43,323 bases of DNA from an uncultured Mycobacteriales bacterium (GTDB lineage: Bacteria > Actinomycetota > Actinomycetes > Mycobacteriales > CADCTP01). The notes below the pieces were generated by a model. The model did no database searches. It saw only the letters and a list, made by a program, of their open reading frames with translations, and had not been told where the DNA came from. Both the position numbers and the translations under genes were made by a program. The stretch covers positions 1 through 43,323 of the forward strand of contig CADCTP010000124.1 in NCBI GenBank assembly GCA_902805565.1. Reading direction: 5' to 3'. Shown one piece after another: positions 11,107 through 32,287 of this stretch (the first letter of the stretch is position 1; each line of letters opens with the position of its first letter).

Positions 11107-11661
11107 ATGACGATGGTGCTGACCGGGGCCAATCCGGGGGTCCTGCTCACGAACGGCGGCGAGACGACCGCGTTCGCCTCGGTGTGGCAGGTGGACTGGT
11201 CCGAGCGCGGCGCGGGCCGGGCGGTGGTGCTCTGGCACGACGGCCGGGTGCGGCTGCTCGGCCCGGACCCGGAGCTCGCCGAATGGCTGGCCGAGACGTT
11301 CGTCCGGCACTTCGGCGAGGTCGCCGGGCTGCCCTGGGTGACCACGGTCGAGCGGGCGGACGTCGACCTGGCGCTCGACCTGGGCACCGGACTGGTCGCC
11401 AAGGCCGCCGACGTGACGGTGGAGCTGGGCGGGATCCTGGACCGGCGGGTCTTCACCATGGACGGCCTCACCCTGGGCGACAGCACGTACGCGCTGTCGA
11501 ACGTCTACGCCCCCTGCCGCACCGCCCGGATCACCGTCGCCGGCACCCCGGTGCCCGGCACCCCGGACGTGGACGAGGCCGGGGATCCCCCGGCCTCGTC
11601 GGCGTTCCTGGCGGTCAACGAGTCCTGGGTCAGGTCTTCTCCAGCAGCGCCACGCCCATGA
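11107..11661 (+). CDS. protein of unknown function
   Basis: 184 residues from an ATG at 11107. I do not recognise the family. The middle is rich in beta-strand-like stretches ('RAVVLWHDGRVRLLG', 'DVTVELGGILDRRVF', 'TMDGLTLGDSTYALSNVYAPC'), and it contains 'LAEWLAETFVRHFGEV', which looks like an amphipathic helix. No signal peptide or membrane segment. It starts 37 nt after the response regulator stop on the same strand, so it could be the third gene of that operon. Its 3' end overlaps the convergent methyltransferase gene by 32 nt, which places the left border of the azoxy-type cluster here. Confidence 0.6.
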   Translation: MTMVLTGANPGVLLTNGGETTAFASVWQVDWSERGAGRAVVLWHDGRVRLLGPDPELAEWLAETFVRHFGEVAGLPWVTTVERADVDLALDLGTGLVAKAADVTVELGGILDRRVFTMDGLTLGDSTYALSNVYAPCRTARITVAGTPVPGTPDVDEAGDPPASSAFLAVNESWVRSSPAAPRP

Positions 11662-12541
11662 AGTCCGACGCCGCCACGTACGGCTTGCGCCCGCCGTACC
11701 GGCGGATCAGGTCGGGCACCCGCAGCGCCTCGACCGTCCGGAACCCGGCGAAGGAGGCGGCGTCGGCGGCCTGCCGCCGGGTCAGCCCGAGGATGTAGGG
11801 CTCACCCCGCTTGGCCACGATCCGCGCGGCGAACTTGGCGCTGAAGTACTTCGAGGTGCCGTTCACCACCGACGGGTCCAGGTAGTCCCACAGCACCCGG
11901 CTGCCCGGCGCGCACATCGAGGCCAGGTCGGCCAGCGCCCGGTCGAACGACGGCCGGCGCAGGTAGTACGACACGCCGATCCAGGCGAACAGCGCCGGCT
12001 GCTCCGCGTCGAACCCGGCCCCGGGCAGCGACTCGGCCAGCGAGGTCGACTCCAGGTCGACCGGCAGGTAGGTCACGGTCGGCGTCTGCACCCCGGCCGC
12101 GGCGAAGATCTTCCGCTTGGCGCCCTGGGTGGCCGGGTGGTCGACCTCGATGACCTTCAGGCCCTCCAGGTGCCGGTGCCGCAGCGCGGTGGAGTCGTAG
12201 CCGGCGCCGACCAGCACCAGCTGCCGCACCCCCTGCGCGTACGCGTCGGCCAGCACGGCGTCCAGGTAGCGCACCCGGAGCAGGATCTCGGCCAGGAAGC
12301 CGCCGAAGACCTTGTCGAACGCGCCCAGCGCCAGCCGGGCCGTCAGCGGCGACCGGACGTAGTACTTGTAGCGCGGGGCCCGGCTGGCGACCAGCTTCGC
12401 GTACGGGTCGTCGGCGAGCCGCCGGTCCGCCGGCAGCCGGTGGTCGACGGCCCGCATCAGCGCGTTCAGGCCGGCGGTGCCGCTCGGCTTGCCCGAGCCG
12501 AGCAGCGTCCCCTGAGCGGGCGCCGAAGCCGGTGTGGACAT
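11630..12541 (-). CDS. LCM-type class I SAM methyltransferase
   Basis: 303 residues of the leucine carboxyl methyltransferase family (PF04072/TIGR00027): 'LPADRRLADDPYAKLVA' at the N-terminus, then the SAM motif 'QLVLVGAGYDSTALR', 'KVIEVDHPATQGAKR', 'TYLPVDLE' and 'LFAWIGVSYYLRRPSFD'. AGGAGA precedes the ATG at 12541. Members transfer methyl groups to carboxylates or hydroxyls of small polyketide-like molecules and to protein C-termini. It is the last gene on the minus strand of the putative azoxy cluster, 35 nt after the kinase. Carboxyl methylation of the acrylate end of the product is an attractive inference, not shown by sequence. Confidence 0.85.
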   Translation of the reverse strand: MSTPASAPAQGTLLGSGKPSGTAGLNALMRAVDHRLPADRRLADDPYAKLVASRAPRYKYYVRSPLTARLALGAFDKVFGGFLAEILLRVRYLDAVLADAYAQGVRQLVLVGAGYDSTALRHRHLEGLKVIEVDHPATQGAKRKIFAAAGVQTPTVTYLPVDLESTSLAESLPGAGFDAEQPALFAWIGVSYYLRRPSFDRALADLASMCAPGSRVLWDYLDPSVVNGTSKYFSAKFAARIVAKRGEPYILGLTRRQAADAASFAGFRTVEALRVPDLIRRYGGRKPYVAASDFMGVALLEKT

Positions 12542-12576
12542 GCGTCTCCTCGTGAAGTGGTCGGGTGTGGGACAGC

Positions 12577-13590
12577 TCAGCCGGCGACCGCGGCGCCGGG
12601 CGCGAGCACCGGCACCGCCCCCGGCACGACCTCGAGCGTCACGGCGGTGCCGCCGCCCGGGCGCACCTCGCCGTCGCTCTCGAACGGCAGCGGCCCGCCG
12701 TCGGACCGCTCGATGCGGACCGTGCGGCCCTGGGCGTAGGCGACGCCCGGCCGGCCGACGTGGGTGCCGCCCATGACGTGCGGGGCCAGCTCGCCGATGG
12801 CCGACATCGGCAGCGCGCCGTCCACCACGCACACGTCCAGCAGCCCGTCGTCGAGCACGGACCGCGGCAGCACCTCGAAGGTGCCGACCCGGTGCCGGCC
12901 GCCGCCCACGGTGGCCAGCAGGGTCAGCCCGTCGTGCAGCAGCTCGCCGTCCACCGTGACCGTCCCCGGGTACGGCGCCGGCGCGGACAGCACCTCGCCG
13001 AGGGCCTTGTGGTAGCGCTCGCGGCCGCGGATCTCCGGGTACTTCAGCGCCACCCGGGTCACGTCGGCGATCAGCCCCGAGGACGCGCCGAGCGCGATCG
13101 CCCGGTCGTCCTCGACCAGCCGCAGCAGGTCCAGCTGGCGGACCCGGCAGCCGCCGGCGGCCAGCACCCGCAGCACCTCGTGGGTGGGCAGCTGGCCCCA
13201 CAGCGCCCGGGCGGTGGAGTTGCCGGTGCCGCCGGGGAGCACGAGCAGCGCGCCGCCGCCCGCGCCGGTGCCGCCGCCGGGCCACCGGCCCAGCCCGCGG
13301 GCCAGCCCCTCGGCCAGCTCGCGGGCGGTGCCGTCGCCGCCCACGCAGACGAGGGCCGCCGGGCCGTCCGGGTCGGTCACCACCGACCCGGCGATCCGGG
13401 TGGCCTCACCGGCCGAGGTCGTCCAGCGCACCGAGACCTCGCCGGACACCTCGGCCACCGCCGAGACGACCTCGTCGACCAGGGTGCGGGTGACCCCGCC
13501 GGCGGTGGGGTTGGCCACCACCAACCACGGCCCGGCGGCCAGACCGGGGACCGATCCGGACTGGACCTCGGCGTCGGTGCTCGAGCTCAC
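12577..13590 (-). CDS. diacylglycerol kinase-like ATP-dependent kinase, VlmJ counterpart
   Basis: 337 residues with the diacylglycerol kinase catalytic fold (PF00781): 'VVANPTAGG' near the start, the ATP loop 'VCVGGDGTARELAEGL', then 'LLVLPGGTGNSTARAL'. The C-terminal lobe has 'ASSGLIADVTRVALKYPEIRG'-type residues and 'VLDDGLLDVCVV'. The GTG at 13590 is chosen because GGGAGG lies 7 nt upstream; a TTG at 13620 is less likely. In valanimycin biosynthesis VlmJ, of this family, phosphorylates valanimycin hydrate so that VlmK can eliminate phosphate. The presence of the other vlm-like functions supports that role over lipid or sphingoid kinase activity. It lies 38 nt after the tRNA gene on the same strand. 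Confidence 0.87.
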   Translation of the reverse strand: MSSSTDAEVQSGSVPGLAAGPWLVVANPTAGGVTRTLVDEVVSAVAEVSGEVSVRWTTSAGEATRIAGSVVTDPDGPAALVCVGGDGTARELAEGLARGLGRWPGGGTGAGGGALLVLPGGTGNSTARALWGQLPTHEVLRVLAAGGCRVRQLDLLRLVEDDRAIALGASSGLIADVTRVALKYPEIRGRERYHKALGEVLSAPAPYPGTVTVDGELLHDGLTLLATVGGGRHRVGTFEVLPRSVLDDGLLDVCVVDGALPMSAIGELAPHVMGGTHVGRPGVAYAQGRTVRIERSDGGPLPFESDGEVRPGGGTAVTLEVVPGAVPVLAPGAAVAG

Positions 13591-13628: not shown

Positions 13629-13715
13629 CGGAGAGGGCAGGATTCGAACCTGCGGAGGCCGGAGCCCGCCCCGGGCCGGAGCCCGGGTCCCGTGGACCGC
13701 TTCGGGTACCTCTCC
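13629..13715 (-). tRNA. serine-type class II tRNA lacking an anticodon loop (putative non-decoding seryl-tRNA)
   Basis: On the minus strand: 7-bp acceptor GGAGAGG/CCTCTCC, then TA, a D arm CCC/GGG with GG in its loop, a T arm GCAGG-TTCGAAT-CCTGC (5 perfect pairs) and discriminator G73; CCA is not encoded. Between D and T arms there are two hairpins. The first, in the anticodon position (13671-13688), pairs CCCGGGC with GCCCGGG, seven unbroken base pairs, closed by a UCCG (UNCG-type) tetraloop, leaving no 7-nt anticodon loop. The second, in the variable-arm position, is a 4-bp GGGC/GCCU stem with the same UCCG loop. A long variable arm plus G73 indicates serine identity, which SerRS reads without the anticodon. 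It sits between the flavin reductase and the VlmJ-like kinase on the same strand. A forced 7-nt loop would read CCG. Confidence 0.8.
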
Positions 13716-13739: not shown

Positions 13740-14261
13740 TCACCCCGCGCTCGAGATCTCCCAGTACCGGCGGTCGTGCCAGAGCAGCGGCCGGCCCGGG
13801 GTGCGGCGGGCGGCGGTGATGCGGCCGACCACGATGCTGTGGTCGCCGTACACCCGCTCGTCCTCCACCAGGCAGACCGCGTACGCCAATGCGTCCCGGA
13901 AGACCGGCACGCCCAGCACGTCGTCCCAGTGCTCGCCGGCGAACCGGTCCCGCGCCGTCAGGCCGGGCCGGGAGAACCGCTGGCTGCGGTCCTGCTGGCC
14001 CTCCCGCAGCAGGTGCACCGCGAACGCCCGGTGCCGCCGGATCGCCCGCAGCGTCCGGGTGTCGGCGGCCAGGCAGGCCAGCAGCAGCGCCGGGCGCACC
14101 GACAGCGAGGTGACGGAGCTGGCGGTCGCGCCGACCGGGCCGTCGGCGTCGCGGGAGGTGAGCACGGTGACCCCGGCCGCCAGGGCCTGGAACAGCTCCA
14201 GCGACGGGCGCACCGGCAGTCCGTCGTCCTCGACGAACGGCCGGGGCAGCACCGAGGTCAC
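13740..14261 (-). CDS. flavin reductase, two-component monooxygenase partner (VlmR-like)
   Basis: 173 residues of the flavin reductase-like FMN-binding split-barrel family (PF01613): 'FQALAAGVTVLTSRDADG', 'GATASSVTSLSVRPALLLACL', 'FAVHLLREGQQDRSQRFS', 'YAVCLVEDERVYGDHSIVVGRI' and 'PLLWHDRRYWEI'. Such enzymes use NAD(P)H to make free reduced flavin for a separate oxygenase. Within this cluster the obvious partner is the acyl-CoA-dehydrogenase-fold enzyme at 17117-18253, mirroring VlmR with the N-hydroxylase VlmH; diiron proteins could also take electrons from it. It starts at a GTG overlapping the upstream stop codon (GTGA), so translation is coupled to the SRPBCC gene. Confidence 0.9.
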   Translation of the reverse strand: MTSVLPRPFVEDDGLPVRPSLELFQALAAGVTVLTSRDADGPVGATASSVTSLSVRPALLLACLAADTRTLRAIRRHRAFAVHLLREGQQDRSQRFSRPGLTARDRFAGEHWDDVLGVPVFRDALAYAVCLVEDERVYGDHSIVVGRITAARRTPGRPLLWHDRRYWEISSAG

Positions 14262-14734
14262 GCCCGGCCCCCCACCTTCGCCTCGTCCTCGGTGTCCAGC
14301 TCGCGCGCGTCGCCCAGCAGCCCCTGCAGGATCAGCAGGATGTTGCTGCGCAGGGCGGACTTGGCCACCGGGTCGAGGATCGAGGCCAGCGTCGGGATGC
14401 CGAGGTCGAACGCGGAGTCGAAGGTGACCTCGCTGCCGGTGCCGGCCGGCACCACCCGCCAGGTCCCGGTGAACACCGCGAAGTCGCCCTTGACCTGCTC
14501 GAAGACCACGGTCCGGGTCTCCGGCACGAAGCTGTCCCGCTCGGTCCAGCGCAGCAGGCCGTTGCGGAAGTGCACCGTCCAGCGGGAGAGCACCGAGCCG
14601 TCCGAGTCGGCCGGCTCCAGGTCCACCTCCTGGACCGCGGTGGTCAGCTCGGGGTAGCGCTCGAACCGCCGGACCCGGTCGAACGCCTCGTCGGCGTCGA
14701 GGCCGGTGGCGACCCGTACGGTCACTGCTGGCAC
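14258..14734 (-). CDS. SRPBCC (polyketide cyclase-like) family protein
   Basis: 158 residues with the helix-grip START-like layout: 'TVRVATGLDADEAFDRVRRFERYPEL' opening, alternating beta strands ('LSRWTVHFRNGLLRWTERDSF', 'VFTGTWRVVPAG', 'SEVTFDSAFDLGIP'), and a long C-terminal helix after 'LDPVAKSALRSNI'. The family includes aromatase/cyclases and ligand carriers such as coenzyme Q-binding proteins. GTG start at 14734 with GGAGGAG upstream. No canonical polyketide synthase is nearby, so aromatisation is unlikely; a role in binding or rearranging a lipophilic intermediate is a guess. Coupled to the flavin reductase downstream. Confidence 0.82.
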   Translation of the reverse strand: MPAVTVRVATGLDADEAFDRVRRFERYPELTTAVQEVDLEPADSDGSVLSRWTVHFRNGLLRWTERDSFVPETRTVVFEQVKGDFAVFTGTWRVVPAGTGSEVTFDSAFDLGIPTLASILDPVAKSALRSNILLILQGLLGDARELDTEDEAKVGGRA

Positions 14735-14774: not shown

Positions 14775-16040
14775 TCAGGCCCGGTCGCGGACCTCCGCCA
14801 GGGACTCGGCGACCGCGGTCACGCACTGCCGCAGCTCGTCCGGGGAGAGGATCGCCGGCGGGGTCAGCCGCAGCACGCTCGCCGCGTTCAGCGAGTGGTT
14901 GGCCAGCACGTCCCGGTCGACCAGGGACAGCACCATCTCCCCGACCAACCCGGGGTCGGCCATCTTCAGCCCGATCAGCAGCCCGCGGCCGCGGACCTGC
15001 TCGACCATGCCGGGGAAGCCGGCGGCCACCCGGTTCAGCTCGGCCAGCAGCTCGTCGCCGAGCGAGGCCGCCCGGGTGACGATGTGCTCGTCCCGCAGCA
15101 CCGTGATCGCGGCGAGCGCGGCCGCGCTGGCCAGCGGGGAGCCGCCGAAGGTCGAGGTGTGCAGGAACGGGTCGTCGCCGAACGGCTGGTACGCCGCCTT
15201 CGTCGCCAGCACCGCCGCGACCGGCACCACCCCGCCGGACAGGCCCTTGCCGACCAGCAGCAGGTCCGGCTCGACGTCCTCGGCGTCGATCCCCCACCAG
15301 CTGCCGAGCCGGCCCAGGCCGGTCTGCACCTCGTCGATGACCAGCATCGCGCCGGCCTGCCGGCAGGCCGCGGACACCTCGCCGAGGTAGCCCGGGGGCG
15401 GCACCACGACGCCGCCCTCGCCCTGCACCGGCTCCAGGATCACGCAGGCCCGCGACCCCAGCCGGGCCAGCGTCTCCCGCATCGCCCCGATGTCCCCGTA
15501 CGGGATGTGGGTGCGGGCCTCGGCCAGCGGCTCGAACGGCCGCTGGTAGAGCGGGTTGGCCGTCGCCGACAGCGCGCCCAGGGTCTTGCCGTGGTAGCCG
15601 GACACCGCGGAGACCAGCCGGTCGTGCCCGTGCACGCGGGCCAGCTTCAGGGCGGTCTCGGTCGCCTCGGCGCCGGAGTTGACGAAGTGGACCTGGTCCA
15701 GCCCGGGCGGCGCGATCCCGGCCAGCGCGCGGGCGGCCAGCGCGGTCATCGGCTCCAGGAACACCCGGGTCGCCAGCGGGTGCCGGTCCAGCTGGTCGTG
15801 CACCGCGGCCACCACCCGGGGGTGCCGGTGGCCGAGGATGAACACGCCGTACCCGCCGACGTCGAGGAACCGGCGGCCGTCGGCGCCGGTCACGTACGCG
15901 CCGGCGGACCCGACCTCGGTGATGCCGCCCATCACGCTGCCGAGCATCGACCGGCCCGAGCCGAGGTGGGCCCGGTACAGCTCCAGGACGTCGACGCCGT
16001 CGGCCGGGTGGGCCGGGACGGTCTCCGGGGCGAGGGTCAT
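14775..16040 (-). CDS. class III PLP-dependent aminotransferase
   Basis: 421 residues, fold type I, class III (acetylornithine/putrescine aminotransferase type). Visible signatures are 'NSGAEATETALKLAR' (from residue 121), 'GYHGKTLGALSATAN' (from 148), 'ILEPVQGEGG' (201-210), 'MLVIDEVQTGLGR' with the pyridine-nitrogen Asp236, and 'LLVGKGLSGG' with the PLP lysine Lys265. The ATG overlaps the upstream stop (ATGA), coupling it to the reductase gene. An aldehyde-forming reductase directly upstream suggests it converts a fatty aldehyde to the primary amine using an amino acid donor. In valanimycin the amine comes instead from valine decarboxylation, so this would be a pathway substitution. Confidence 0.92.
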   Translation of the reverse strand: MTLAPETVPAHPADGVDVLELYRAHLGSGRSMLGSVMGGITEVGSAGAYVTGADGRRFLDVGGYGVFILGHRHPRVVAAVHDQLDRHPLATRVFLEPMTALAARALAGIAPPGLDQVHFVNSGAEATETALKLARVHGHDRLVSAVSGYHGKTLGALSATANPLYQRPFEPLAEARTHIPYGDIGAMRETLARLGSRACVILEPVQGEGGVVVPPPGYLGEVSAACRQAGAMLVIDEVQTGLGRLGSWWGIDAEDVEPDLLLVGKGLSGGVVPVAAVLATKAAYQPFGDDPFLHTSTFGGSPLASAAALAAITVLRDEHIVTRAASLGDELLAELNRVAAGFPGMVEQVRGRGLLIGLKMADPGLVGEMVLSLVDRDVLANHSLNAASVLRLTPPAILSPDELRQCVTAVAESLAEVRDRA

Positions 16041-17083
16041 GCCGCCGCCTCCCGGGCGAAGGCGTCGGACGCGGCGAACCCGCTGTGCACCGCGCAGAAC
16101 TCCACCGTCCGGCGGAACGCCTCCAGCGTCGCCTGCCGCGACATCTGCAGGTCCAGCCCGATCTCGGCCATCGAGCTGCGCAGCGGCGCCTCGTTCTGGA
16201 ACATCATCATGAGCTCCGAGAACGCGGTGAACTGCAGCCGCACCGCCCGCGGCATGACGCCCTCCATCAGCGGCACCAGCAGCCGGTCCACGGCCTCGAC
16301 CGGGATCAGCCGGGGCGCGGTCGTCTCCAGCCCCAGCTCGTCGGCGACGGCCAGGATGGTGTCGTTGACCATCGAGTCCAGCGTGGGCGCCGCGTCCCCG
16401 GCGGTCAGCCAGAAGTCGCCCTCGGTGATCCCGGAGCGCAGCACCCGGCCGGTGGCCCGGCACACCACGTCCATCGGGATGCAGTCGATGGTCGAGCCCG
16501 GGTCGGCCGGCAGCACCGGCAGCTCGTTCTTCAGCGTCGCCACGACCACCTTGTGGATGCCCTGCAGCGCCGAGATGTAGCCGTCGGCGGAGTTGCCGAG
16601 CACCACCGACGGCCGCAGGATGACCGCCGGGTGGCCGGACGCGCGGACCTGGTCCTCGGCGTCGATCTTGGACCGGACGTACGCGGTGACGCCGGTCAGC
16701 GGGACGTCGTCGGCCGGCGGCCGGGCCACGAACGCGGTGCTCATGTGGTAGAGCGGGGCGCCGGCGGACCGGGCGAACTCGATCGCGTGCTCGGTGCCGA
16801 GCTGGTTGGTGCGGCGGATCTTCTCCGGCCGCAGCCGCCAGTTGGTCGACGCGCCGCAGTGCAGCACCGCGGCGACCTCGCCGATGTCCCGCCGGGTGAA
16901 GTCGTCGAACCCCAGCCCCGGCTCGGACAGGTCACCCTGCGCCTCCCGCACCCGGGGGTCGCCCACCGGCGTGCGGTGCCGCAGCGCGACCACGTCGAAG
17001 TCGTCCGCGAGCTCGTCCAGCAGCGCCCGGCCGAGCACTCCGCTGGCGCCGGTCAGCAGCACCGTCGGCCTCGGGTCGGTCAT
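16037..17083 (-). CDS. extended SDR, thioester reductase / fatty acyl reductase-like
   Basis: 348 residues. The N-terminal Rossmann fold has 'LLTGASGVLGRALLDEL' (TGASGVLG at 11-18), 'VLHCGASTNW' near 73, the catalytic set Ser115, Tyr135 and Lys139 in 'YHMSTAF' and 'AYVRSKI', and 'VILRPSVVLGNSADGY'. This is the NAD_binding_4 / thioester reductase pattern, which reduces carrier-protein or CoA thioesters to aldehydes with NAD(P)H. Here it is a stand-alone enzyme rather than the C-terminal domain of a synthetase. It is coupled to the aminotransferase by an ATGA overlap, supporting a joint reduction-amination step. A simple epimerase function cannot be excluded. Confidence 0.82.
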   Translation of the reverse strand: MTDPRPTVLLTGASGVLGRALLDELADDFDVVALRHRTPVGDPRVREAQGDLSEPGLGFDDFTRRDIGEVAAVLHCGASTNWRLRPEKIRRTNQLGTEHAIEFARSAGAPLYHMSTAFVARPPADDVPLTGVTAYVRSKIDAEDQVRASGHPAVILRPSVVLGNSADGYISALQGIHKVVVATLKNELPVLPADPGSTIDCIPMDVVCRATGRVLRSGITEGDFWLTAGDAAPTLDSMVNDTILAVADELGLETTAPRLIPVEAVDRLLVPLMEGVMPRAVRLQFTAFSELMMMFQNEAPLRSSMAEIGLDLQMSRQATLEAFRRTVEFCAVHSGFAASDAFAREAAA

Positions 17084-17116: not shown

Positions 17117-18253
17117 TCAGGCGATCGTGAGCGGCTCGCCGAGCAGGTACGCGGCCAGCGGGCCGGCCATCTTCGGCCGGCCGGGCGGGTGGAAGCCGAG
17201 GCCGTTGACCGAGGCGGCCAGGTAGCCGACGTCGTCGCCGCGGATGAACTGCATGCCGCCGAGCAGCTCGACGGCCTTGGGCACGGCCCGGGCGATGGCG
17301 TCCTGGGCGGCGTACCGGGCCAGCAGGCTGCGCACCAGCAGGCTCTCGTCGCGCTGCTCGGCCGGCACCAGGTGGGCGATCGCCTCGACACCGGCCATCG
17401 CGCCCTCCAGCTCGACCACCAGCGCGAGCCGGTCGCCCGGGGCCACCCGCTCGTCCTGCAGCACCCGCTCGACCAGCGCGCTGGCCGCGCCGAGGTAGCT
17501 GGCCGCCATCAGCAGCTCGAACCACACGAAGCCGGCGACGGTGAGGTCGTCCAGCGACCGGCCCGGCGGCACCTCGGTACGGATCATCAGTTCCTCGGGC
17601 ACCGCCACGTCGGTCAGCGTGACCTGGTCGCTCTCCGCGCCGGCCAGCGCGAAGCTGCCCCAGAACGGGCTGACCGTGATCCCCGGCGCGTCCGCCGGCA
17701 CCAGCAGCACCGCCAGCTGCTCGCCCTCGCCGTCCAGCCGCGGCACGAGCGCGCTGCCGGTCAGCAGGTCCATCGACCGGGCCAGGCTGCACGGCCGCTT
17801 GACCCCGCTGACCAGCACGCCGCCGCCGGGGGCCGCGACCGCGGTCATCGTCGGCTGCAGGATGCTGCGGTCCGGCCGGCCCTCGGCCCAGCCGGAGGCC
17901 AGCAGCCGCTTCCCGGTCGCGGTCGCCTCCAGCACCATCCACTCGAAGCCCTCGCTGGTCTCGCTGAGCACGACCAGGCTGGCCACCGAGAAGTGGTGCA
18001 TGGTGGTGGCCACCGCGAGCGACGGCGACCGGCTGCCCAGCGCCCGCTGCACCCGTACGGCCTCCAGCGCGGAGGCGCCGAGCCCGCCGTGCTGGCTCGG
18101 CACCAGCAGCGCCGGCCCGTTGCACTCCCGGAAGTCGGCGACCGCCGGGCTGCCGGGCTTCTCCGTCTCGCTCAGCGAGTGGCCGGTCAGCCGCTCGTCC
18201 AGCCCGGGCAGGAACTTGTCCATCGTGGACCGCTCGCGCTCCAGGAACCGCAT
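17117..18253 (-). CDS. acyl-CoA dehydrogenase-fold flavoenzyme, probable amine N-hydroxylase (VlmH-like)
   Basis: 378 residues with an acyl-CoA dehydrogenase layout: helical N-terminal domain ('VPSQHGGLGASALEAVRV'), beta domain ('GKRLLASGWAEG', 'GGGVLVSGVKRPCSLARSMDLL', 'GITVSPFWGSFALAGAESDQV') and C-terminal helical bundle ('AIARAVPKAVELLGGMQFI'). The usual C-terminal 'YGG-G-E' and 'IYEGT' motifs that carry the dehydrogenase base and cofactor contacts are not recognisable. Two-component flavin monooxygenases, including the isobutylamine N-hydroxylase of valanimycin, share this fold, and a flavin reductase is in the same gene string. N-hydroxylation of the alkyl amine is therefore the favoured role; acyl desaturation is the alternative. 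GGAGGAAG precedes the ATG at 18253. Confidence 0.8.
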   Translation of the reverse strand: MRFLERERSTMDKFLPGLDERLTGHSLSETEKPGSPAVADFRECNGPALLVPSQHGGLGASALEAVRVQRALGSRSPSLAVATTMHHFSVASLVVLSETSEGFEWMVLEATATGKRLLASGWAEGRPDRSILQPTMTAVAAPGGGVLVSGVKRPCSLARSMDLLTGSALVPRLDGEGEQLAVLLVPADAPGITVSPFWGSFALAGAESDQVTLTDVAVPEELMIRTEVPPGRSLDDLTVAGFVWFELLMAASYLGAASALVERVLQDERVAPGDRLALVVELEGAMAGVEAIAHLVPAEQRDESLLVRSLLARYAAQDAIARAVPKAVELLGGMQFIRGDDVGYLAASVNGLGFHPPGRPKMAGPLAAYLLGEPLTIA

Positions 18254-18287: not shown

Positions 18288-19265
18288 TCAGATCGAGTTG
18301 GTGACCCGCAGGAGGCGCCACACCGACGACAGGCGGGGCCGGCCGGAGAAGGCGACGTACTCGGGGACGATCGCGTGCGGCCCCCATTTCTCCTTGTAGT
18401 CGACCTGGGTGCGGGCCGGGTAGACCTTCTCGCCGCGCTCGGCGAAGAAGGTCATGAGCTTGTCGACCTTCGGGCTGCCGCCCTCGACGGCGTGCTTGGC
18501 GTCGAGCCCGGCGAACGGGGTGAAGCCGAAGTGCAGCCACTGCGCGCCCTCGGCGGTGAACACGTCGAGGGCGGCCTTGTTCGCCGCCTCCATCACACCC
18601 GGCGGCACCTCGACCCGGCGCCGGCTGAGCGCGTGCATCCAACCGGGCCGGCTGCCGTGCACCGGCGTGTAGACGATGTAGCCGAGCACCCCGGACGGGC
18701 CGCGGGCGACGAACACCCGCCCGTCGGGGGCGTCCCGCTCGCAGACCAGGAAGCGCAGCGGCTTGACGTGCCGGCCCTTGCTGCGCAGCCACTCCCGGTC
18801 CAGCCCGTCCAGCTCGCGGGCGATGGCCGGGTCCTTGATGCTCTCCTCGGCCACGGTGACCCCGGCCTTGGTGGCCCGGGAGATCTTGTTCCGCAGCCGC
18901 ATGAACTTCGACCCGCGCAGCGTGAACCGGGCCAGGTCGACCGCGTACGAGGCGCCGACCTGGTTGACCGTGTAGCCGTTGCGGGCGAACACCTCGGCGT
19001 CGGCCGGCTGGAGCTGGATGGCCACCACGTGCTTGCGGTGCTCGGCGGCGTGCTCGGTGAACCGGCGCAGCAACGGCTCGTAGTCCGCGGCCGGCGCGAA
19101 CGGCCCGCCCAGCCCGACCAGGTGCCGGCCCGCGGTGCGGTGCACCACCACGCCGGACAGGTCCGGCTGGGTGAAGTACTCGTTGCCCGGGTTCAGCGCC
19201 AGGAACGCGCTCGGGTTGTCGGCGAAGGTCTCGACCGCGGCGCGGACGTCAAGAGCGGACGACAC
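18288..19265 (-). CDS. DUF2156 (GNAT-fold) aminoacyl-tRNA-dependent transferase, putative seryltransferase (VlmA-like)
   Basis: 325 residues related to the C-terminal domain of lysyl-phosphatidylglycerol synthases (DUF2156/LPG_synthase_C): 'NEYFTQPDLSGVVVHRTAGRHLVGLGGPF'-type opening, 'GYTVNQVGASYAVDL', 'RNKISRATKAGVTVAEES', 'EWLRSKGRHVKPLRFLV', 'GVLGYIVYTPVHGSRPGWMH' and a final 'VYPARTQVDYKEKWGP'. Members use aminoacyl-tRNA as acyl donor. In valanimycin VlmA moves serine from seryl-tRNA to the hydroxylamine oxygen. A serine-type tRNA without anticodon is encoded about 4.6 kb downstream on the same strand, matching that need. The GTG at 19265 follows AGGAG and overlaps the upstream gene by 17 nt. 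Direct homology to VlmA needs alignment. Confidence 0.78.
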   Translation of the reverse strand: MSSALDVRAAVETFADNPSAFLALNPGNEYFTQPDLSGVVVHRTAGRHLVGLGGPFAPAADYEPLLRRFTEHAAEHRKHVVAIQLQPADAEVFARNGYTVNQVGASYAVDLARFTLRGSKFMRLRNKISRATKAGVTVAEESIKDPAIARELDGLDREWLRSKGRHVKPLRFLVCERDAPDGRVFVARGPSGVLGYIVYTPVHGSRPGWMHALSRRRVEVPPGVMEAANKAALDVFTAEGAQWLHFGFTPFAGLDAKHAVEGGSPKVDKLMTFFAERGEKVYPARTQVDYKEKWGPHAIVPEYVAFSGRPRLSSVWRLLRVTNSI

Positions 19266-19824
19266 CGGAGATCCTCTCCTTCGCCGGGGGCACCGGGGCA
19301 CCGGTGCCGGCGGTGGACGGCTCGGGGTGCGCGTCGTGGGTGACGTGCGCCCCGTGCGGCTCGTGCTCCACCCACTCCGCCGGCCCCGGCCGGTACGCCC
19401 GCTCCAGCGCGGCGAACGCCGGGTGGGTCGCCGGCTCGAACCGGACCCCGAACGGCTTGAGCGAGTTGCCGAACAACGCCCGGTCGCCCATCAGGTGGAT
19501 CGGCAGCGCGAGCAGCGCCCACTCCCACCCGACGAACAGCGCCCACAGGCCGGCGATGGCCGCCGCGGTCACCAGCGAGTGCATGGTGTTGTACGCGATG
19601 TAGTAGCCCTTCGACACCTGGCCGTCCGGGCTCCGCCGGAACGCGATCGCCCCCGGGAGGTAGCCGATGAGGTCGATCACGAGGAACAGGGCGATGAAGA
19701 CGCCCCACCGGATGTCGCCGAGGTGCAGCAGCGCCAGCACCGACGCCACGACCAGCGCGGTGAACCATTCCAGCCGGTGCAGGGCGAAGGTGGTGCGGGT
19801 CTCGAAGCGGTTGTGGCCGTCCAC
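19249..19824 (-). CDS. small integral membrane protein, candidate N-N bond-forming protein (VlmO-like)
   Basis: 191 residues from a GTG with TAGGAGG upstream. Three to four hydrophobic helices lie in residues 18-115 ('FTALVVASVLALLHLG', 'VFIALFLVIDLIGYLPGAIAF', 'LVTAAAIAGLWALFVGWEWALLALPIHLMGD'). Polar residues conserved-looking for a catalytic membrane protein fall between them ('YYIAYNTMHS', 'IHLMGDRALFG'), and a His/Pro/Glu-rich soluble tail follows. The topology resembles small DUF4260-type proteins. Its stop lies inside the DUF2156 gene, a tight coupling. In valanimycin a membrane protein, VlmO, rearranges the O-seryl hydroxylamine to an N-N bond; position next to the seryltransferase makes the same role plausible, but this is inference. 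Confidence 0.65.
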   Translation of the reverse strand: MDGHNRFETRTTFALHRLEWFTALVVASVLALLHLGDIRWGVFIALFLVIDLIGYLPGAIAFRRSPDGQVSKGYYIAYNTMHSLVTAAAIAGLWALFVGWEWALLALPIHLMGDRALFGNSLKPFGVRFEPATHPAFAALERAYRPGPAEWVEHEPHGAHVTHDAHPEPSTAGTGAPVPPAKERISGVVRS

Positions 19825-20594: not shown

Positions 20595-21584
20595 TCAGGG
20601 AAGCCGGACGACCTGGGCGGCGTACAGCAGCCCGGATCCGAACCCCATCAGCAGCGCCCGCTGCCCGCTGCGCGCCTCCCCCGAGGACAGCAGCTGCTCC
20701 ATGGCGAGCGGGATGGACGCCGCGGAGGTGTTGCCGGTACGGACGATCTCGCGGGCCACCACCACCCGGTCGGACAGGCCGATGCCCTTCACCAGCGCGT
20801 CGGTGATGCGCAGGTTGGCCTGGTGCGGGATGAACACGTCGATGTCGTCCAGGGTCAGCCCGGCCCGGTCCACCGCGTCCCGGGCGATCGGCGCCAGCTC
20901 GGTGACCGCCCAGCGGAACACCTGCTGCCCGGCCATCCGCAGGGTCGGCGCCGGCACGGTCGGGTCGGCCCGCACGTCCGCCCAGGAGTACGGCTGGGCG
21001 ATGGCGTCGAGCTGGCTGCCGTCGGAGCCCCAGCGCACCGGGCCGATGCCGTCCTCGGCGCCCGGCCCGACCACGACGGCGCCCGCGCCGTCGCCGAAGA
21101 TGAACGCGGTGCCGCGGTCGGTCGGGTCCAGGATGTCGGTCATCCGCTCCACGCCGGCCACCACGACGTACCGGGCGCTGCCGGCCCGGACCGCGTCGGC
21201 GGCGGCCGCGAGGGTGTAGCAGAAGCCGGCGCAGCCCGCGCCGGTGTCCATCGCCCCGGCTCCGTTCGAGCCGATCCGGAAGGCGACCTCCGCGGACAGC
21301 GGCGGGGCCTGCCGGACGTTGCTCATGGTGGTGGTGAGCACGAGCGACACGTCGCCCGGCGAGACCCCGGCCTCGCCGAGCGCCTTGCCGGCGGCGGCCG
21401 TGGCCATGTCGCCGAGTGACTCCCCCGCGCCGGCGAAGTACCGGTTGCCGATGCCGGACCGGGTCCGGATCCACTCGTCGCTGGAGTCGATCGGGCCGGC
21501 CACCTCCTCGTTGCCGACGGACCGGGCGGGCCGGTAGACGCCGAGGCCGAGGATCGCCGGGCTCGCCGGCGCGGGGGTGGTCAT
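20595..21584 (-). CDS. 3-oxoacyl-ACP synthase III (FabH-like KAS III)
   Basis: 329 residues with the complete thiolase-fold catalytic triad: Cys118 in 'DTGAGCAGFCYTL', His in 'VFIPHQANLRI', and Asn in 'GNTSAASIPLAM'. Also 'SSDEWIRTRSGIGNRYF' (from 34), which is the FabH N-terminal signature. KAS III enzymes condense an acyl-CoA starter with malonyl-ACP; some members perform acyl transfer instead. In this cluster it could prime or extend the fatty chain that becomes the amine. The ATG overlaps the stop of the upstream diiron gene (ATGA), so the two are translated together. It is not part of a full FAS operon. Confidence 0.93.
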   Translation of the reverse strand: MTTPAPASPAILGLGVYRPARSVGNEEVAGPIDSSDEWIRTRSGIGNRYFAGAGESLGDMATAAAGKALGEAGVSPGDVSLVLTTTMSNVRQAPPLSAEVAFRIGSNGAGAMDTGAGCAGFCYTLAAAADAVRAGSARYVVVAGVERMTDILDPTDRGTAFIFGDGAGAVVVGPGAEDGIGPVRWGSDGSQLDAIAQPYSWADVRADPTVPAPTLRMAGQQVFRWAVTELAPIARDAVDRAGLTLDDIDVFIPHQANLRITDALVKGIGLSDRVVVAREIVRTGNTSAASIPLAMEQLLSSGEARSGQRALLMGFGSGLLYAAQVVRLP

Positions 21585-22540
21585 GCTCCGAGCCCCATGT
21601 AGGCCAGCCGGGAGGCCTGCATCTCGGCCGACCAGGTCAGCCCCTGGGTGATCCGCTCCTCGACGGTGGTGTCGACGATGCGGCGGCCGGGCCAGATCTC
21701 GTAGTCGCCGGCGGCGTCGCGGTGCCGGTCCAGACCGGCCTGGAAGAGCGTCTCCCGGCGGCCCAGCATGTCGACCACCGGCACCTTGCCCCACAGCTCC
21801 TGGCCGCGGCCGACGAGCTCCTCCAGCCGGCCCCGGTCCTCCGGGTGCGCGACCAGGTGCTCCTTGACGATGCTGCTGCCCACGGTGAGGTGCCGGATCT
21901 CGTCGATGCCGGCGCCCCGCTCGATCTGGGCGGCGGCCGGGTCGAGCACCCGCCACTTCCGCTCGGACAGCTCGGCGGCCGGGGCGAGCACACCCTCCAC
22001 CAGCACGGTGAGCAGGATCACCCCGCCGATGAAGTCCCCGGCCTCGAGGACCGGCGCGGAGAACTCCTCCAGCGGCACCAGCACGGCCTCGATGTCCGCG
22101 CCGGACTCCCGGCGGATCGTCTCGTCCAGCTCCTGGACCGGTACCCCCATCTCCACGAGATGCCCACGGAACACGCGGGCATGCCTCGCCTCGTCGATGA
22201 GCTGGGTGGAATAGAACTCCATCGTGTCCAGGTCGGGCGCCGTCTCCACCAGCGTGGCGATGGCCCGGGTGGCCTTCTCCTCGGCCACCGACCGGAAGCC
22301 CAGCTCGCTGACCAGGGCCTGCCGCAGCGGATCGGCCGGGTCCCGCATGTACGCCGGGGTGGCCGCGTCGGGGTGGTGACCCCGGACCAGGCCGGCCAGG
22401 GTGCCCTGGGCGACCGCGGCGAGCCAGTAGTCCAGGTTGCAGTCGGCGGCGGTGAGCGTGAGGTTCATCGCCCCGTCGACCAGGCTGGGCGCGGTGTCCC
22501 AGCCGGCCTCGGCCGGGATCGGCCCTGCGGTGGCGGTCAT
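21581..22540 (-). CDS. AurF/VlmB-type diiron oxygenase
   Basis: 319 residues, helical ferritin-like fold. Two iron-ligand blocks of the form E-X28/30-D-E-X2-H are present: Glu87 to Asp116-Glu117-Ala-Arg-His120 ('LIDEARHAR'), and 'LVEGVLAP' to 'GIDEIRHLT' later. This doubled pattern is the hallmark of N-oxygenases such as AurF and CmlI and of the azoxy-forming VlmB. Within a cluster carrying the other vlm-like functions, oxidation of a hydrazine intermediate to the azoxy group is the leading assignment. It is coupled by ATGA overlaps to the sigma factor upstream and the KAS III downstream. Desaturase or N-oxygenase action on another intermediate remains possible. Confidence 0.83.
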   Translation of the reverse strand: MTATAGPIPAEAGWDTAPSLVDGAMNLTLTAADCNLDYWLAAVAQGTLAGLVRGHHPDAATPAYMRDPADPLRQALVSELGFRSVAEEKATRAIATLVETAPDLDTMEFYSTQLIDEARHARVFRGHLVEMGVPVQELDETIRRESGADIEAVLVPLEEFSAPVLEAGDFIGGVILLTVLVEGVLAPAAELSERKWRVLDPAAAQIERGAGIDEIRHLTVGSSIVKEHLVAHPEDRGRLEELVGRGQELWGKVPVVDMLGRRETLFQAGLDRHRDAAGDYEIWPGRRIVDTTVEERITQGLTWSAEMQASRLAYMGLGA

Positions 22541-25860: not shown

Positions 25861-26661
25861 CTAGGGGGTCGTCCGGCCCCAGGCCGACACCATCGTGGGC
25901 GTCAGGGCGTCGAAGTCCGGGTCGGCCATCCGGGCCGCGAACGCGGCCAGGTCGTCCTGGGTGAGCAGGCCGGCCGCCAAGACCTTGGGCACCAGGGCGG
26001 CGAAGGTCTGCCGGTGCACCGACGCGGTCGGCGAGCCGGCACCGCGCAGGGTCAGCACCCGGCCCACCGCGTCCACCCCGGACAGGCCCAGCCGCCGCAG
26101 CAGCGTCGGCAGCCGCCGGCCCAGCCCCGGGTCGAAGCCGCCCTCGACCAGCACCCGGGTGAAGGCGGCGATGGTCCGCTCCGCCGCCGGGGACGGGAAC
26201 GCCGGGCCGTAGGAGGCCCAGTCGTACTCCTCGACCAGCAGCGCGCCGCCCGGCCGCAGCCCGCCGGCCAGGGTGGCGAGCACCGCGGCCGGGTCCGGCA
26301 GGTGGCCGAGCAGCAGCCGGGCGTGCGCGACGTCGTACCCGCCGCCGGGCAGCGTGCCGGCGGTGACGTCGGCCGCGTGCACCTCGACCGTCGGGGCGGC
26401 CAGCGCGGTCAGGAACCGCGGGTCCAGGTCCACGGCGACCACCGTCCCGGCCGCGCCCACCCGGCCGGCGGCCCAGGTCACCAGGCCGCCCGCGCCGGCC
26501 CCGGCGAACAGCACCCGGGCGCCCGGGCCGACCCCGAGCCGGGCCAGGTGCTCGGCGCTGGTCGGGTCGTACGCGGCCTCCAGCGCCCGCAGCCGCTCCA
26601 GCTCGCCCGCCGCCGCGTTGTCCAGGACGTACCCGGTGGCCTGGCCGGGGGACGTGCCCAT
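25861..26661 (-). CDS. class I SAM-dependent methyltransferase
   Basis: 266 residues: 'ATGYVLDNAAAGELERLRALEAAYDPTSAEHL' opening, then 'ARVLFAGAGAGGLVTWAA' (SAM loop), 'TVVAVDLDPRFL', 'YDVAHARLLLGHLPDP' and 'LRPGGALLVEEYDWA'. This pattern fits small-molecule O- or N-methyltransferases of the Methyltransf_25 type. The GGG of the usual VLDvGcGtG loop is altered to AGAGAGG, still Gly-rich. Its ATG overlaps the acyl carrier protein stop by one base (TGATG), giving tight coupling. Target unknown; a second methyltransferase follows two genes later. Confidence 0.87.
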   Translation of the reverse strand: MGTSPGQATGYVLDNAAAGELERLRALEAAYDPTSAEHLARLGVGPGARVLFAGAGAGGLVTWAAGRVGAAGTVVAVDLDPRFLTALAAPTVEVHAADVTAGTLPGGGYDVAHARLLLGHLPDPAAVLATLAGGLRPGGALLVEEYDWASYGPAFPSPAAERTIAAFTRVLVEGGFDPGLGRRLPTLLRRLGLSGVDAVGRVLTLRGAGSPTASVHRQTFAALVPKVLAAGLLTQDDLAAFAARMADPDFDALTPTMVSAWGRTTP

Positions 26662-26915
26662 CAGTGCGTGACGGCGCCGGAGCTGCGCACCAGCTCGACC
26701 AGGTCGGCGACGGTGAGCACGTCCATCGCGGACTCCTCGTCGATCGGCTCCAGGCCGAACTCCTCCTCCAGCGCGGTGGTCAGCTCCACCGTCGCCAGCG
26801 AGTCGAAGCCCAGGTCCTCGGTCATCCGGTGCTCCGGCAGCGCCTCCCGCGGCCCCAGCGGGGACATCTCCCCCACCATCGCCCGCACCCGGCGGCCCAG
26901 CTCGTCGTCGGTCAT
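26661..26915 (-). CDS. acyl carrier protein
   Basis: 84 residues with the phosphopantetheine attachment site 'DLGFDSLATVELTTALEEEFGL', Ser near residue 40, followed by the acidic recognition helix and 'VADLVELV'. It is coupled by an ATGA overlap to the acyl-AMP ligase upstream and by TGATG to the methyltransferase downstream. The gene pair ligase-carrier is the standard way to activate and load a free fatty acid for secondary metabolism; the thioester would be the substrate for the reductase at 16037-17083. Confidence 0.95.
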   Translation of the reverse strand: MTDDELGRRVRAMVGEMSPLGPREALPEHRMTEDLGFDSLATVELTTALEEEFGLEPIDEESAMDVLTVADLVELVRSSGAVTH

Positions 26916-28627: not shown

Positions 28628-28691
28628 GCTCGTTCGTCTCCCCTCGTCCCGCGGCTCCCCGGGGTCGGGGGCCGGCATCTGGAAGGTGTTA

Positions 28692-29577: not shown

Positions 29578-30672
29578 TCACTCGGCGCCGACGGCGACGG
29601 TGGTGTCGATCTCCTGCCGGCGCTGCCGGAGCTCCAGCTTCTCCTGGTCGACCTTGTCCGCCATGGCCTCGTCGGCCGCCAGCATCGCGGTCAGGTCGCC
29701 GGCGCTCATCTGCAGCACGCCCATGTCGTCGTACGCCTTCTGCACCTGCGGGCTCCACAGCCCGATGTCCCGGACGCACGGCACGATCCGGGTGAACAGC
29801 AGCGAGCGGAACGCCTGCTGCCGCGGCCCCTTGTCCATGTACTCCAGGCACTCCGCGACGTCGTAGCCGAGGTTCTCCCAGACCTCCTGCATCCGGAAGC
29901 GGTCCCGCATCGCCTTGCAGCCCTCGATGACGAACTCCTCCCGCTCGGCGAGCTCGGCCGCCGAGAGCTGGGAGTAGTAGTCCTTCAGGGCCAGCCGGCC
30001 GAAGGCCACGTGCCGGGCCTCGTCCTGCATGATGTAGGCCAGGATCTGCTTCGGCAGCGGCTTGGTGGTCCGGTCCCGGAGCACCCCGAAGGCGGCCAGC
30101 GCCAGCCCCTCGATGAGCACCTGCATCCCCAGGTACGGGAAGTCCCACCGCGAGTCCGACAGCGCGTCGTCGAGCAGCCCCTGCAGCGAGGTGTTGATCG
30201 GGTACGCCATCTGCAGCTTCTCCAGCAGGAACTTGCTGAAGATCTCGGCGTGCCGGGCCTCGTCCATCACCTGCGTCGAGGCGTAGAACTTCGAGTCCAG
30301 GTCGGGGACGGACTCCACGATCCGGGCCGAGCAGATCATCGCGCCCTGCTCGCCGTGCAGGAACTGGCTGAACTCCCAGGACGCCATGTGCCGGCGCAGC
30401 TCCCGCCGGTCCTGGACGCCCAGCTTGTTCCACTGGTTGGAGCCGTAGATCGACAGGGACCGCTCCGGGGTGCCGAGCGCGTCGAACGGGTCGACCTCCA
30501 GGTCCCAGTCGATCCGGGCCACGCTGTCCCACTGCTTGTCCTTGCCCTTCTGGTACAGCGACAGCAGCCGGGCCCTGCCCTCGTCGTACTCCCAGCTGAA
30601 CCGCGCCGCGCCGGAGGCGGGCACCGCCCAGCCGTCGCCGACGGGCGGCAGCGTGTACGGGGCATCGGTCAT
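29578..30672 (-). CDS. second ferritin-like diiron oxygenase
   Basis: 364 residues, helical. It carries the doubled E-X28-D-E-X2-H pattern: Glu108 to Asp137-Glu138-Ala-Arg-His141, and 'VLIEGLALAAFG' to 'MQDEARHVAF', again 28 residues apart. It is longer than the enzyme at 21581-22540, and the two are clearly different in sequence. Diiron enzymes of this group oxidise amines or desaturate/hydroxylate acyl chains. With one VlmB-like protein already present, this one may modify the alkyl chain or serve a separate N-oxidation. Divergent from the MmgE/PrpD gene across a 109-nt region. Confidence 0.83.
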   Translation of the reverse strand: MTDAPYTLPPVGDGWAVPASGAARFSWEYDEGRARLLSLYQKGKDKQWDSVARIDWDLEVDPFDALGTPERSLSIYGSNQWNKLGVQDRRELRRHMASWEFSQFLHGEQGAMICSARIVESVPDLDSKFYASTQVMDEARHAEIFSKFLLEKLQMAYPINTSLQGLLDDALSDSRWDFPYLGMQVLIEGLALAAFGVLRDRTTKPLPKQILAYIMQDEARHVAFGRLALKDYYSQLSAAELAEREEFVIEGCKAMRDRFRMQEVWENLGYDVAECLEYMDKGPRQQAFRSLLFTRIVPCVRDIGLWSPQVQKAYDDMGVLQMSAGDLTAMLAADEAMADKVDQEKLELRQRRQEIDTTVAVGAE

Positions 30673-30781
30673 CGATCGTCCTTCCCGGTCGGATCCTGTG
30701 GCCGCATACCTCCTTTACGCACGAGTAGCTTCCCGCCCTCGGCGATCCGAGGACCGGAGGGGGCGGCGTCCGTATACGGGC
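30673..30781. promoter_or_regulatory. divergent control region with palindromes
   Basis: This 109-nt gap separates the diiron gene (minus) and the MmgE/PrpD gene (plus). It holds GCATACC at 30703-30709, the same 7-mer as the arm of the operator at 23471, and a perfect 10-bp palindrome CCGTATACGG at 30770-30779, directly ahead of the GTG at 30782. I cannot place clear -35/-10 hexamers. GGAGGGG lies about 20 nt before that GTG, too far for a standard ribosome site, so near-leaderless translation is possible. Confidence 0.4.
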
Positions 30782-32287
30782 GTGCCCACGTTGCTGGAAG
30801 AACTCTCGGGCTGGGCCCGCGACCTGGACCTGGACGACGTCCCCGAGCCGGTCCTGCGGCTCGCGGGCAGCCAGGTCCTGTCCCAGCTGGCGGCGGCGCG
30901 GGCCGGGATGGCCCACCCGCTGGGCCGCCGGATGATCGCGGCGTTCGGCCCGCCGCTGCAGGACGACCCCGTCCGCGCGGCCTGCTCGCTGGCCGGCCTG
31001 ACCTCGTGGCTGCAGATGGACGACACCGCGTACGCCGGGCACCTGGGCAACTCCACGGTCACCGTGCCGCTGGCGTACGCGCTGGCCGGGCAGGCCGACG
31101 GCCGGGACCTGCTGCGGGCCGTGGTGGGCGCGAACGAGTGCGCCGCCCGGGTCACCGCCGCGGCCACGCTGGGGCCGTTCCGCGGGCAGAGCGCGACGCA
31201 CACCGCGCTGGTCGGCGCGGTCGCCGGCCGGTTCGGGATCACCGGGGCGACGCACCGGCAGTGGGTGGACGCGCTCGCGCTGGCCTTCGGGATGCCGCCG
31301 CGGGTGCTGTCCCCGGCCTTCCTGCGCAGCGACACCAAGATGCTCAACGCGCTGGTCCCGGTGCGGGCCGGGCTGGACGCCTGCGACGCCGCGCTGGCCG
31401 GGCTGAGCGGCGCCGCCGACATCCTGGAGCACCCGGAGGGGTTCCTGTCCCGGTTCTCCTCGGTGCCGCTGCCGGAGGCGGTCACCGCCGGGCTGGGCCG
31501 CCGCTGGCACACCGAGACGCTGTCGTTCAAGCTGCACCCGGGCGGGCCCGGGGTGGACTCGGCGGTGGACTGCGCGATGGAGCTGGCCGCCGAGCTGGGG
31601 CCGCTGCGGCCCGGCGACGTCGCCGACGTGCTGGTCGAGACGTCGTACTACACGGTCTTCGTGGACCGGAAGGTCGCGCCGGTGGTGGCCGGGGCGGACA
31701 CGCCGCTGACCGCCCTGGTCATGTCCACCCCGTACGGGGTGGCGACCGCGCTGCTGACCGGCGGGCTGGAGCCCGGCGACTACGCCGGCGCGCGGCTGGC
31801 CGACCCGGACCGGTGGGAGCTGGCCGAACGGGTCCGGGTGGAGCACGACCCGGCGATGACCCGGGACTCCTTCCGCTGCGAGGTGCCCTTCGGCGAGGCG
31901 CTGCGGCTGGCCGGCGACCGGGCCGCCCGCTGGGAGTTCGGCAGCCTGGGCTCCGACCTGGACGCGCTGGGCCTGTCCGGGCTGACCGCGGACCTCGGCC
32001 CGCCGAGCGAGTCGTTCGCCGGGGCCCGCAAGGTCACCGGCGCCCGGGTCACCGTCACGCTGGCCGACGGCCGCACCGCGGTCCGGGAGCGGGCCGTCCC
32101 GCGCGGCGCCGCCGGCCCGGAGACCCGGGCCGCGCACCAGGAGCTGGTGCGGGAGAAGTTCCTGCGCACCGGCGGGCCGGTGGCGGTGGCGGACCTGCTG
32201 GCCGGGCTGCCGGACGTGCCGGCCGGGCGGCTCGCGGCCGCGATCCGTGCCGGGTTGGCCGAGTGCCCGGCGACCGAGGACGCGTAA
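30782..32287 (+). CDS. MmgE/PrpD family protein, VlmK counterpart
   Basis: 501 residues of the 2-methylcitrate dehydratase/iminodisuccinate-type MmgE/PrpD fold: 'ACSLAGLTSWLQMDDTAYAGHLGNSTVTVPLAYALA' (the DDT..GH segment near 75-95), 'VVGANECAARVT', 'HTALVGAVAGRFGI', 'LALAFGMPPRVL' and 'ETLSFKLHPGGPGVDSAVDCAM'. Members add or remove small groups at alpha/beta positions. In valanimycin VlmK of this family eliminates phosphate from the VlmJ product to give the acrylate. Presence of a VlmJ-like kinase 17 kb away on the other side supports that role here. First gene of the rightward operon. Confidence 0.87.
   Translation: MPTLLEELSGWARDLDLDDVPEPVLRLAGSQVLSQLAAARAGMAHPLGRRMIAAFGPPLQDDPVRAACSLAGLTSWLQMDDTAYAGHLGNSTVTVPLAYALAGQADGRDLLRAVVGANECAARVTAAATLGPFRGQSATHTALVGAVAGRFGITGATHRQWVDALALAFGMPPRVLSPAFLRSDTKMLNALVPVRAGLDACDAALAGLSGAADILEHPEGFLSRFSSVPLPEAVTAGLGRRWHTETLSFKLHPGGPGVDSAVDCAMELAAELGPLRPGDVADVLVETSYYTVFVDRKVAPVVAGADTPLTALVMSTPYGVATALLTGGLEPGDYAGARLADPDRWELAERVRVEHDPAMTRDSFRCEVPFGEALRLAGDRAARWEFGSLGSDLDALGLSGLTADLGPPSESFAGARKVTGARVTVTLADGRTAVRERAVPRGAAGPETRAAHQELVREKFLRTGGPVAVADLLAGLPDVPAGRLAAAIRAGLAECPATEDA

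Follow-up and report, generated by a model that had tools for sequence, protein, structure and literature searches.

A tRNA-Ser-like gene without an anticodon loop: a probable dedicated seryl-tRNA for azoxy-type natural product biosynthesis

Introduction

What can a tRNA do that has no means of reading a codon, and why should its gene lie among antibiotic-type genes? These questions are raised by a locus in an uncultured Mycobacteriales bacterium, where what appears to be a serine tRNA gene lacking an anticodon loop sits in a valanimycin-type cluster. How Ser-tRNA is directed away from translation into valanimycin is unknown, according to a review (PMC4052509), and a private non-decoding tRNA would be a direct, testable answer to that diversion. 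We analyzed the whole 43,323-nucleotide stretch carrying the locus, hereafter the window, together with its relatives in other genomes. We hold with considerable confidence that the gene encodes a seryl-tRNA that does not decode and is reserved for the biosynthesis of azoxy-type natural products. This reading is based on what can be derived from sequence, namely structure, family, co-occurrence, adjacency, and a shared operator. Transcription, charging by SerRS, exclusion from the ribosome and EF-Tu, and serine donation to VlmA are inferred, in the absence of RNA, charging, or transfer data.

Results

A tRNA-Ser body with a capped anticodon arm

The tRNA-like gene occupies positions 13629..13715 of the window on the minus strand, with its 5′ end at 13715 and G73 at 13629. 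Its arms comprise a 7-bp acceptor (13709-13715/13630-13636, GGAGAGG/CCTCTCC), a D arm with a 4-bp stem and GG in the loop (13689-13706), a long variable arm closed by UCCG (13654-13669), and a T arm, GCAGG-TTCGAAT-CCTGC (13637-13653). The bacterial tRNA-Ser criteria of G1-C72, G2-C71, a long variable arm, and G73 are all met. The arm at the anticodon position (13670-13687), CCCGGGC-UCCG-GCCCGGG, forms seven unbroken pairs under a UCCG cap and fails the criterion for a decoding tRNA, which is a 5-bp anticodon stem, a 7-nt loop, and U33. A preliminary description of the locus had reported these arms, the two UCCG caps, and an 11-mer, GGGCTCCGGCC, present in both the anticodon and the variable arm; every one of these features was borne out on the minus-strand sequence. 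The designation as a non-decoding tRNA-Ser-like gene rests on this fold, on the Rfam score, and on a family of 76 relatives.

The Rfam tRNA covariance model (RF00005) gives the gene 37.4 bits (E=1.6e-6), which exceeds the gathering cut-off of 29 bits. Because it scores over the cut-off, with a genome-wide E of 5.1e-6, a chance match is excluded. It is the lowest-scoring of the 40 tRNAs above the cut-off in its genome, and a fast Rfam scan of the whole window passed it over.

Could the gene nonetheless decode, perhaps at a rare or frameshift event? ARAGORN assigns it as tRNA-Arg(CCG) and reports odd 2- and 4-nt anticodons in relatives, and the window loop can be written as 8 nt. However, ViennaRNA energies place the cloverleaf with the 7-bp arm and tetraloop at -49.9 kcal/mol versus -41.9 for the version with a 5-bp stem and 8-nt loop, so that opening the loop costs 8 kcal/mol. 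Folding with a forced 7-nt loop had been suggested as a check, and it came out in favor of the capped arm: within 17 nt, the window gene cannot form an arm that has both five pairs and a 7-nt loop. Moreover, the anticodon that would be implied changes from relative to relative almost without exception, and none of the relatives forms a full canonical arm (below). We therefore find a decoding role scarcely credible.

A valanimycin-type gene neighborhood

The gene lies in a minus-strand series that begins with a VlmO-like protein (19249..19824), of a family common to VlmA clusters, and a VlmA-type seryl-tRNA:hydroxylamine transferase (18288..19265; PF09924 LPG_synthase_C / DUF2156, Pfam 1.8e-54). 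There follow a VlmH-like flavin-dependent N-hydroxylase of acyl-CoA dehydrogenase fold (17117..18253), a thioester-reductase-like NAD-binding protein (16037..17083; PF07993, 2e-30) that probably makes the aldehyde, and a class-III aminotransferase (14775..16463; PF00202, 3e-84; true start probably near 16040) that probably makes the amine precursor. Next come a polyketide-cyclase-like (SRPBCC) protein present in many VlmA clusters (14258..14734), a VlmR-like flavin reductase (13740..14261; PF01613), the tRNA-like gene, a diacylglycerol-kinase-like VlmJ homologue that groups with VlmJ of other clusters (12577..13590; PF00781/PF19279), and an LCM-type O-methyltransferase (11630..12550; PF04072, 4.3e-40). 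A VlmB-like protein, again of a family common to VlmA clusters, is encoded at 21581..22540 on the same strand, and an ORF on the plus strand (30470..32287) contains a VlmK (MmgE/PrpD) homologue that clusters with the VlmK family. The window meets the criterion for a valanimycin-type azoxy cluster, that is, homologues of VlmA, VlmH, VlmB, VlmO, and VlmR together, the set named as conserved in PMC9379638. Beyond VlmB, phosphopantetheine-site and AMP-ligase-like ORFs (26661-28067 and 26912-28678, minus strand) possibly belong to the same cluster.

The distant PDB sequence relatives of the 18288..19265 protein are aminoacyl-tRNA-dependent phosphatidylglycerol synthases, and we propose this VlmA-type enzyme as the consumer of the charged tRNA. 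The tRNA-like gene begins 24 nt after the reductase gene and ends 38 nt before the likely vlmJ start, read from the sequence as a GTG at 13590 behind GGGAGG. Judged from this spacing alone, it is probably co-transcribed with both neighbors. Only one SerRS gene was found in the window genome.

A multi-copy family in which the arm varies and the pairing persists

Relatives of the VlmA protein in GTDB have odd tRNAs nearby that share the body of the window gene. A phylum-wide search of 296 genomes with the full pattern gave no match except the window, and the family was therefore sought in Streptomycetaceae and in the window's own order. With at most one mismatch allowed, a 24-mer taken from the T arm and the 3′ acceptor had matches in 46 of the 395 Streptomycetaceae genomes searched, often with several per genome. 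Copies reach 16 per genome and are either dispersed or arrayed in tandem at intervals of about 106-132 bp (G452, G496, G484, G391, G468, and G462; e.g., L087-L089 and L092-L099), and those fetched include 76 distinct sequences. On sequence grounds, the window gene belongs to a family of actinomycete genes present in multiple copies. In one complete Streptomycetaceae genome with ten family copies, none of the ten appeared among the results of an Rfam tRNA search. Some copies (L059, L064, L099) have the acceptor GGATAGG, in which pair 4-69 is a U-C mismatch; this variant has been amplified in G462 and G484.

Across the 76 relatives, the acceptor, D, and T arms, the long variable arm, and G73 are near-invariant; G1-C72, G2-C71, A3-U70, C11-G24, and G73 are present in 75. 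The anticodon arm differs in length and sequence yet pairs, closing with a 4-nt loop in 57 relatives, of which 31 are of GNRA (21) or UNCG (10) type. A full 5-bp/7-nt arm with U33 is formed by 0/76, so that homologues with an ordinary 7-nt loop, which would have refuted the preliminary description, did not appear. At a looser threshold of 4 of 5 pairs, 22 of the 76, including the window gene, can be made to adopt a 7-nt loop with U33; at a looser threshold, ordinary type-II tRNAs form the 5-bp/7-nt arm with U33 in 12 of 12 cases.

Covariation was assessed in the 20 arms of 22 nt, where 97.8% of cells are paired and nine cells have changed on both sides. The covariation score is 0.430 versus 0.306 in shuffles; none of 500 shuffles reached it, and all slid controls were lower. 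In the same arms, doubly changed pairs are no more numerous than in shuffles (3 versus 2.5). When halves were swapped between 68 distinct arms, pairing fell from 4.88 to 4.19 of 6, with a maximum of 4.5 in 2000 shuffles.

The gene tracks VlmA

VlmA homologues (E<=1e-40) occur in 64 of the 395 Streptomycetaceae genomes, and they are present in 41/46 tRNA-positive genomes versus 23/349 others (p=1.4e-33, odds ratio 116). This p value overstates independence, since the species are related. On the VlmA tree, the tRNA label requires at least 4 changes versus 17 in shuffles. The tRNA lies within 1 kb of vlmA in 21 genomes, often as tandem arrays, and within 20 kb in 29; many other copies are far from VlmA. 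A search of other vlm-like clusters for the same gene, proposed in the preliminary description, succeeded. In the window's order, outside Streptomycetaceae, VlmA is present in 4/4 further tRNA-positive genomes. Within 10 kb of the VlmA relatives L032, L038, and L039, which belong to mixed clades, there is no tRNA.

The association was also examined in 72,556 plasmids as an independent set, 13 of which have VlmA and 14 the tRNA. Every one of the 11 Streptomyces plasmids with VlmA also carries the tRNA, and the two VlmA plasmids without it come from Embleya and Paraburkholderia, with VlmA identity of about 41%. The latter, P. phymatum pBPHY01 (L178), has a betaproteobacterial VlmA homologue of 41% identity and no such tRNA within 6 kb. 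Three plasmids, NC_022001.1 (S. collinus Tu 365), NZ_CP107797.1, and NZ_CP051007.1, bear the tRNA without VlmA, which may be chromosomal.

Five tRNA-positive Streptomycetaceae genomes have no close VlmA; four hold broken or degenerate copies (L056, L057, L062, L066), and the fifth match is unrelated (L063). Such breakage is as expected if selection lapses in the absence of VlmA. One might instead see in the family a decayed tRNA-Ser or an integration-site (att) remnant that travels with the clusters, since tRNA genes are common integration sites and some copies are indeed broken. But the broken copies occur where close VlmA is missing, and elsewhere there are compensatory pairing under selection, conserved promoters, and near-invariant bodies across families. 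No neighboring gene family is common to the dispersed copies, although integrases were not specifically sought. We give this explanation almost no weight. Decoding, frameshift, and att-remnant readings are rejected on variable anticodons, lack of a canonical arm, compensatory pairing, and conserved promoters.

A shared operator upstream of the tRNAs and pathway genes

A classical SARP site consists of three heptamers at 11-bp spacing. The motif TCAG-N7-TCAG, with its 11-bp spacing, is found in 73 of the 79 distinct sequences upstream of family members, 67 of which have the 22-bp pair too; shuffles contain 0.08 such pairs, and the opposite strand has one. The 79 regions include some re-fetched loci, and the independent number is somewhat lower. 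In the upstream consensus, GTCAG recurs in 11-bp steps, and a −10-like CANNNT starts 10 nt beyond the final TCAG; its most common position is 54-60 nt upstream of the tRNA 5′ end. In design this is a putative SARP activator operator, for which no binding data exist at the family boxes. The SARP VlmI has been reported to bind upstream of vlmJ and vlmA-vlmH (PMC10972967).

GTCAG boxes also precede pathway genes. On the plasmid of Streptomyces sp. NBC_00212, a valanimycin-like cluster with valine-pathway genes, a decarboxylase, SerRS, and MmgE/PrpD has them before vlmJ and vlmH, and also before an array of two tRNA genes next to the SARP gene. Dispersed Streptomyces chromosomal copies far from VlmA bear the same boxes. 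No GTCAG operator was found upstream of the window copy. Lone copies mostly have a GTCAG operator of their own without shared neighboring genes, and the retention of so many is unexplained.

A shared SARP-like regulon and a multi-copy, dispersed distribution would also suit a regulatory or sponge RNA of the pathway, one that senses serine charging, for example, or shields SerRS from the product, rather than donating serine. Indeed, the Bacillus cereus pseudo-tRNA tRNAOther has been proposed as a regulatory RNA (PMC3399842). However, a base-pairing regulator would be expected to conserve a loop, whereas here the acceptor, D, and T arms and the serine-identity positions are near-invariant and the anticodon hairpin is variable, as expected for a charged substrate. 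The gene also tracks a seryl-tRNA-using enzyme specifically. A regulatory role thus seems to us improbable. The alternative of a dedicated donor for the DUF2156/VlmA enzyme, put forward in the preliminary description, gains support from co-occurrence, adjacency, tandem arrays, the shared operator, tRNA decay without VlmA, and the plasmid set.

Links to serine

Bacterial serine identity is independent of the anticodon and is set by the variable arm, acceptor pairs, and G73 (PMC9976931). The family keeps these positions (75/76 for G1-C72, G2-C71, and G73), and the closest ordinary tRNA in genome G391 is tRNA-Ser(UGA). VlmA loci with the tRNA often have VlmJ, VlmK, or SerRS; among 24 tRNA-less VlmA loci examined, VlmJ and SerRS were each found in 0 and VlmK in 1. 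Most tRNA-less loci look like azodyrecin-type clusters; these have been proposed to use alanyl-tRNA and contain no gene for an aminoacyl-tRNA synthetase (PMC9379638). Two odd tRNA calls in tRNA-less loci (L131, L142) were inspected and fall outside the family, as does L124, an ordinary tRNA-Arg. Since most clusters lack a SerRS gene, the housekeeping SerRS would have to accept the tRNA-like RNA.

The T-stem pair A51-U63 is cited as weakening EF-Tu binding in staphylococcal tRNA-Gly (PMC4052509). The pair is present throughout the family, with A51 in all 76 members, and G51 is found in the seven ordinary tRNA-Ser examined, four of G391 and three of the window genome. A51 is not diagnostic alone, as the tRNA-Tyr of G391 has it too. 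On S. lavendulae pSA3239, near an azoxy-type cluster with SerRS, a member of the class I tRNA ligase family (L180, 1462-3756) lies beside an NRPS and possibly marks a further aminoacyl-tRNA-linked pathway.

Discussion

Our analysis suggests, as an inference beyond sequence, that the gene works like a non-proteinogenic donor tRNA, being a tRNA-Ser by its body and not a decoding tRNA by its anticodon arm. In the window, the tRNA would be cut from the transcript of an apparent operon, between the vlmR-like flavin reductase and vlmJ; in Streptomyces, it would usually be made from its own promoter under the cluster SARP activator. Because it retains what SerRS recognizes, namely features of the acceptor, the variable arm, and G73, serine would be attached to it by the housekeeping or the cluster SerRS. 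With its anticodon arm folded into a capped hairpin, it should be unable to read codons, and the seryl ester would thus be kept for VlmA, which would transfer serine to the alkylhydroxylamine. VlmJ/VlmK may dehydrate the serine residue later, and extra tRNA copies could increase supply when the pathway is on.

More broadly, azoxy-type antibiotic chemistry in bacteria appears to have a private supply of tRNA. We extend this only tentatively, with somewhat less than even confidence, to a separate tRNA economy for specialized metabolism in actinomycetes: a SARP-controlled, multi-copy regulon of anticodon-less seryl-tRNAs, with some clusters having their own SerRS, VlmA reading the conserved body or the hairpin, and the pair orthogonal to translation.

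The dedicated-donor reading may be relevant in several ways. First, if true, an RNA gene joins the parts list of antibiotic clusters, one that is possibly needed for heterologous expression. Second, standard annotation hides the gene, through false ARAGORN identities and copies absent from the Rfam tRNA listing, and it could serve as a genome-mining marker for serine-derived azoxy clusters. Finally, the family offers a natural tRNA scaffold that is apparently charged, by inference, yet unable to decode. In the literature searched, which did not extend to bioRxiv or the original valanimycin cluster papers, we found no description of such a tRNA, nor of a tRNA gene in azoxy clusters.

It is useful to compare the family with known systems. 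The VlmA/VlmL pathway of valanimycin has the same transferase family and the accessory genes VlmH/B/O/R/J/K, SerRS, and SARP; published accounts have it use cellular Ser-tRNA, whereas we propose a dedicated tRNA. The valanimycin-like NBC_00212 plasmid cluster has two such tRNAs beside its SARP gene. Among ordinary tRNAs, Streptomyces tRNA-Ser(UGA) has the closest acceptor and D arm (GGAGAGC..CCCGAGCGGCC; L164) but a normal 7-nt loop and a GUGGG rather than GCAGG T stem. tRNA-Sec resembles the family in its long variable arm, G73, SerRS charging, and being kept from EF-Tu (PMC9976931), yet it decodes UGA, whereas the family has no anticodon loop. The B. cereus tRNAOther is likewise a tRNA-like RNA outside translation and linked to antibiotics; unlike the family, it bears an anticodon for Trp and accepts lysine only poorly, and its proposed action is within a larger regulatory RNA (PMC3399842). 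The staphylococcal non-proteinogenic tRNA-Gly isoacceptors that feed FemXAB are likewise reserved for a non-ribosomal transferase (PMC4052509), and their EF-Tu-weakening T-stem pairs include the A51-U63 whose A51 the family shares. Those tRNAs serve the cell wall, whereas the family described here combines a capped anticodon hairpin, antibiotic clusters, and SARP-type operators.
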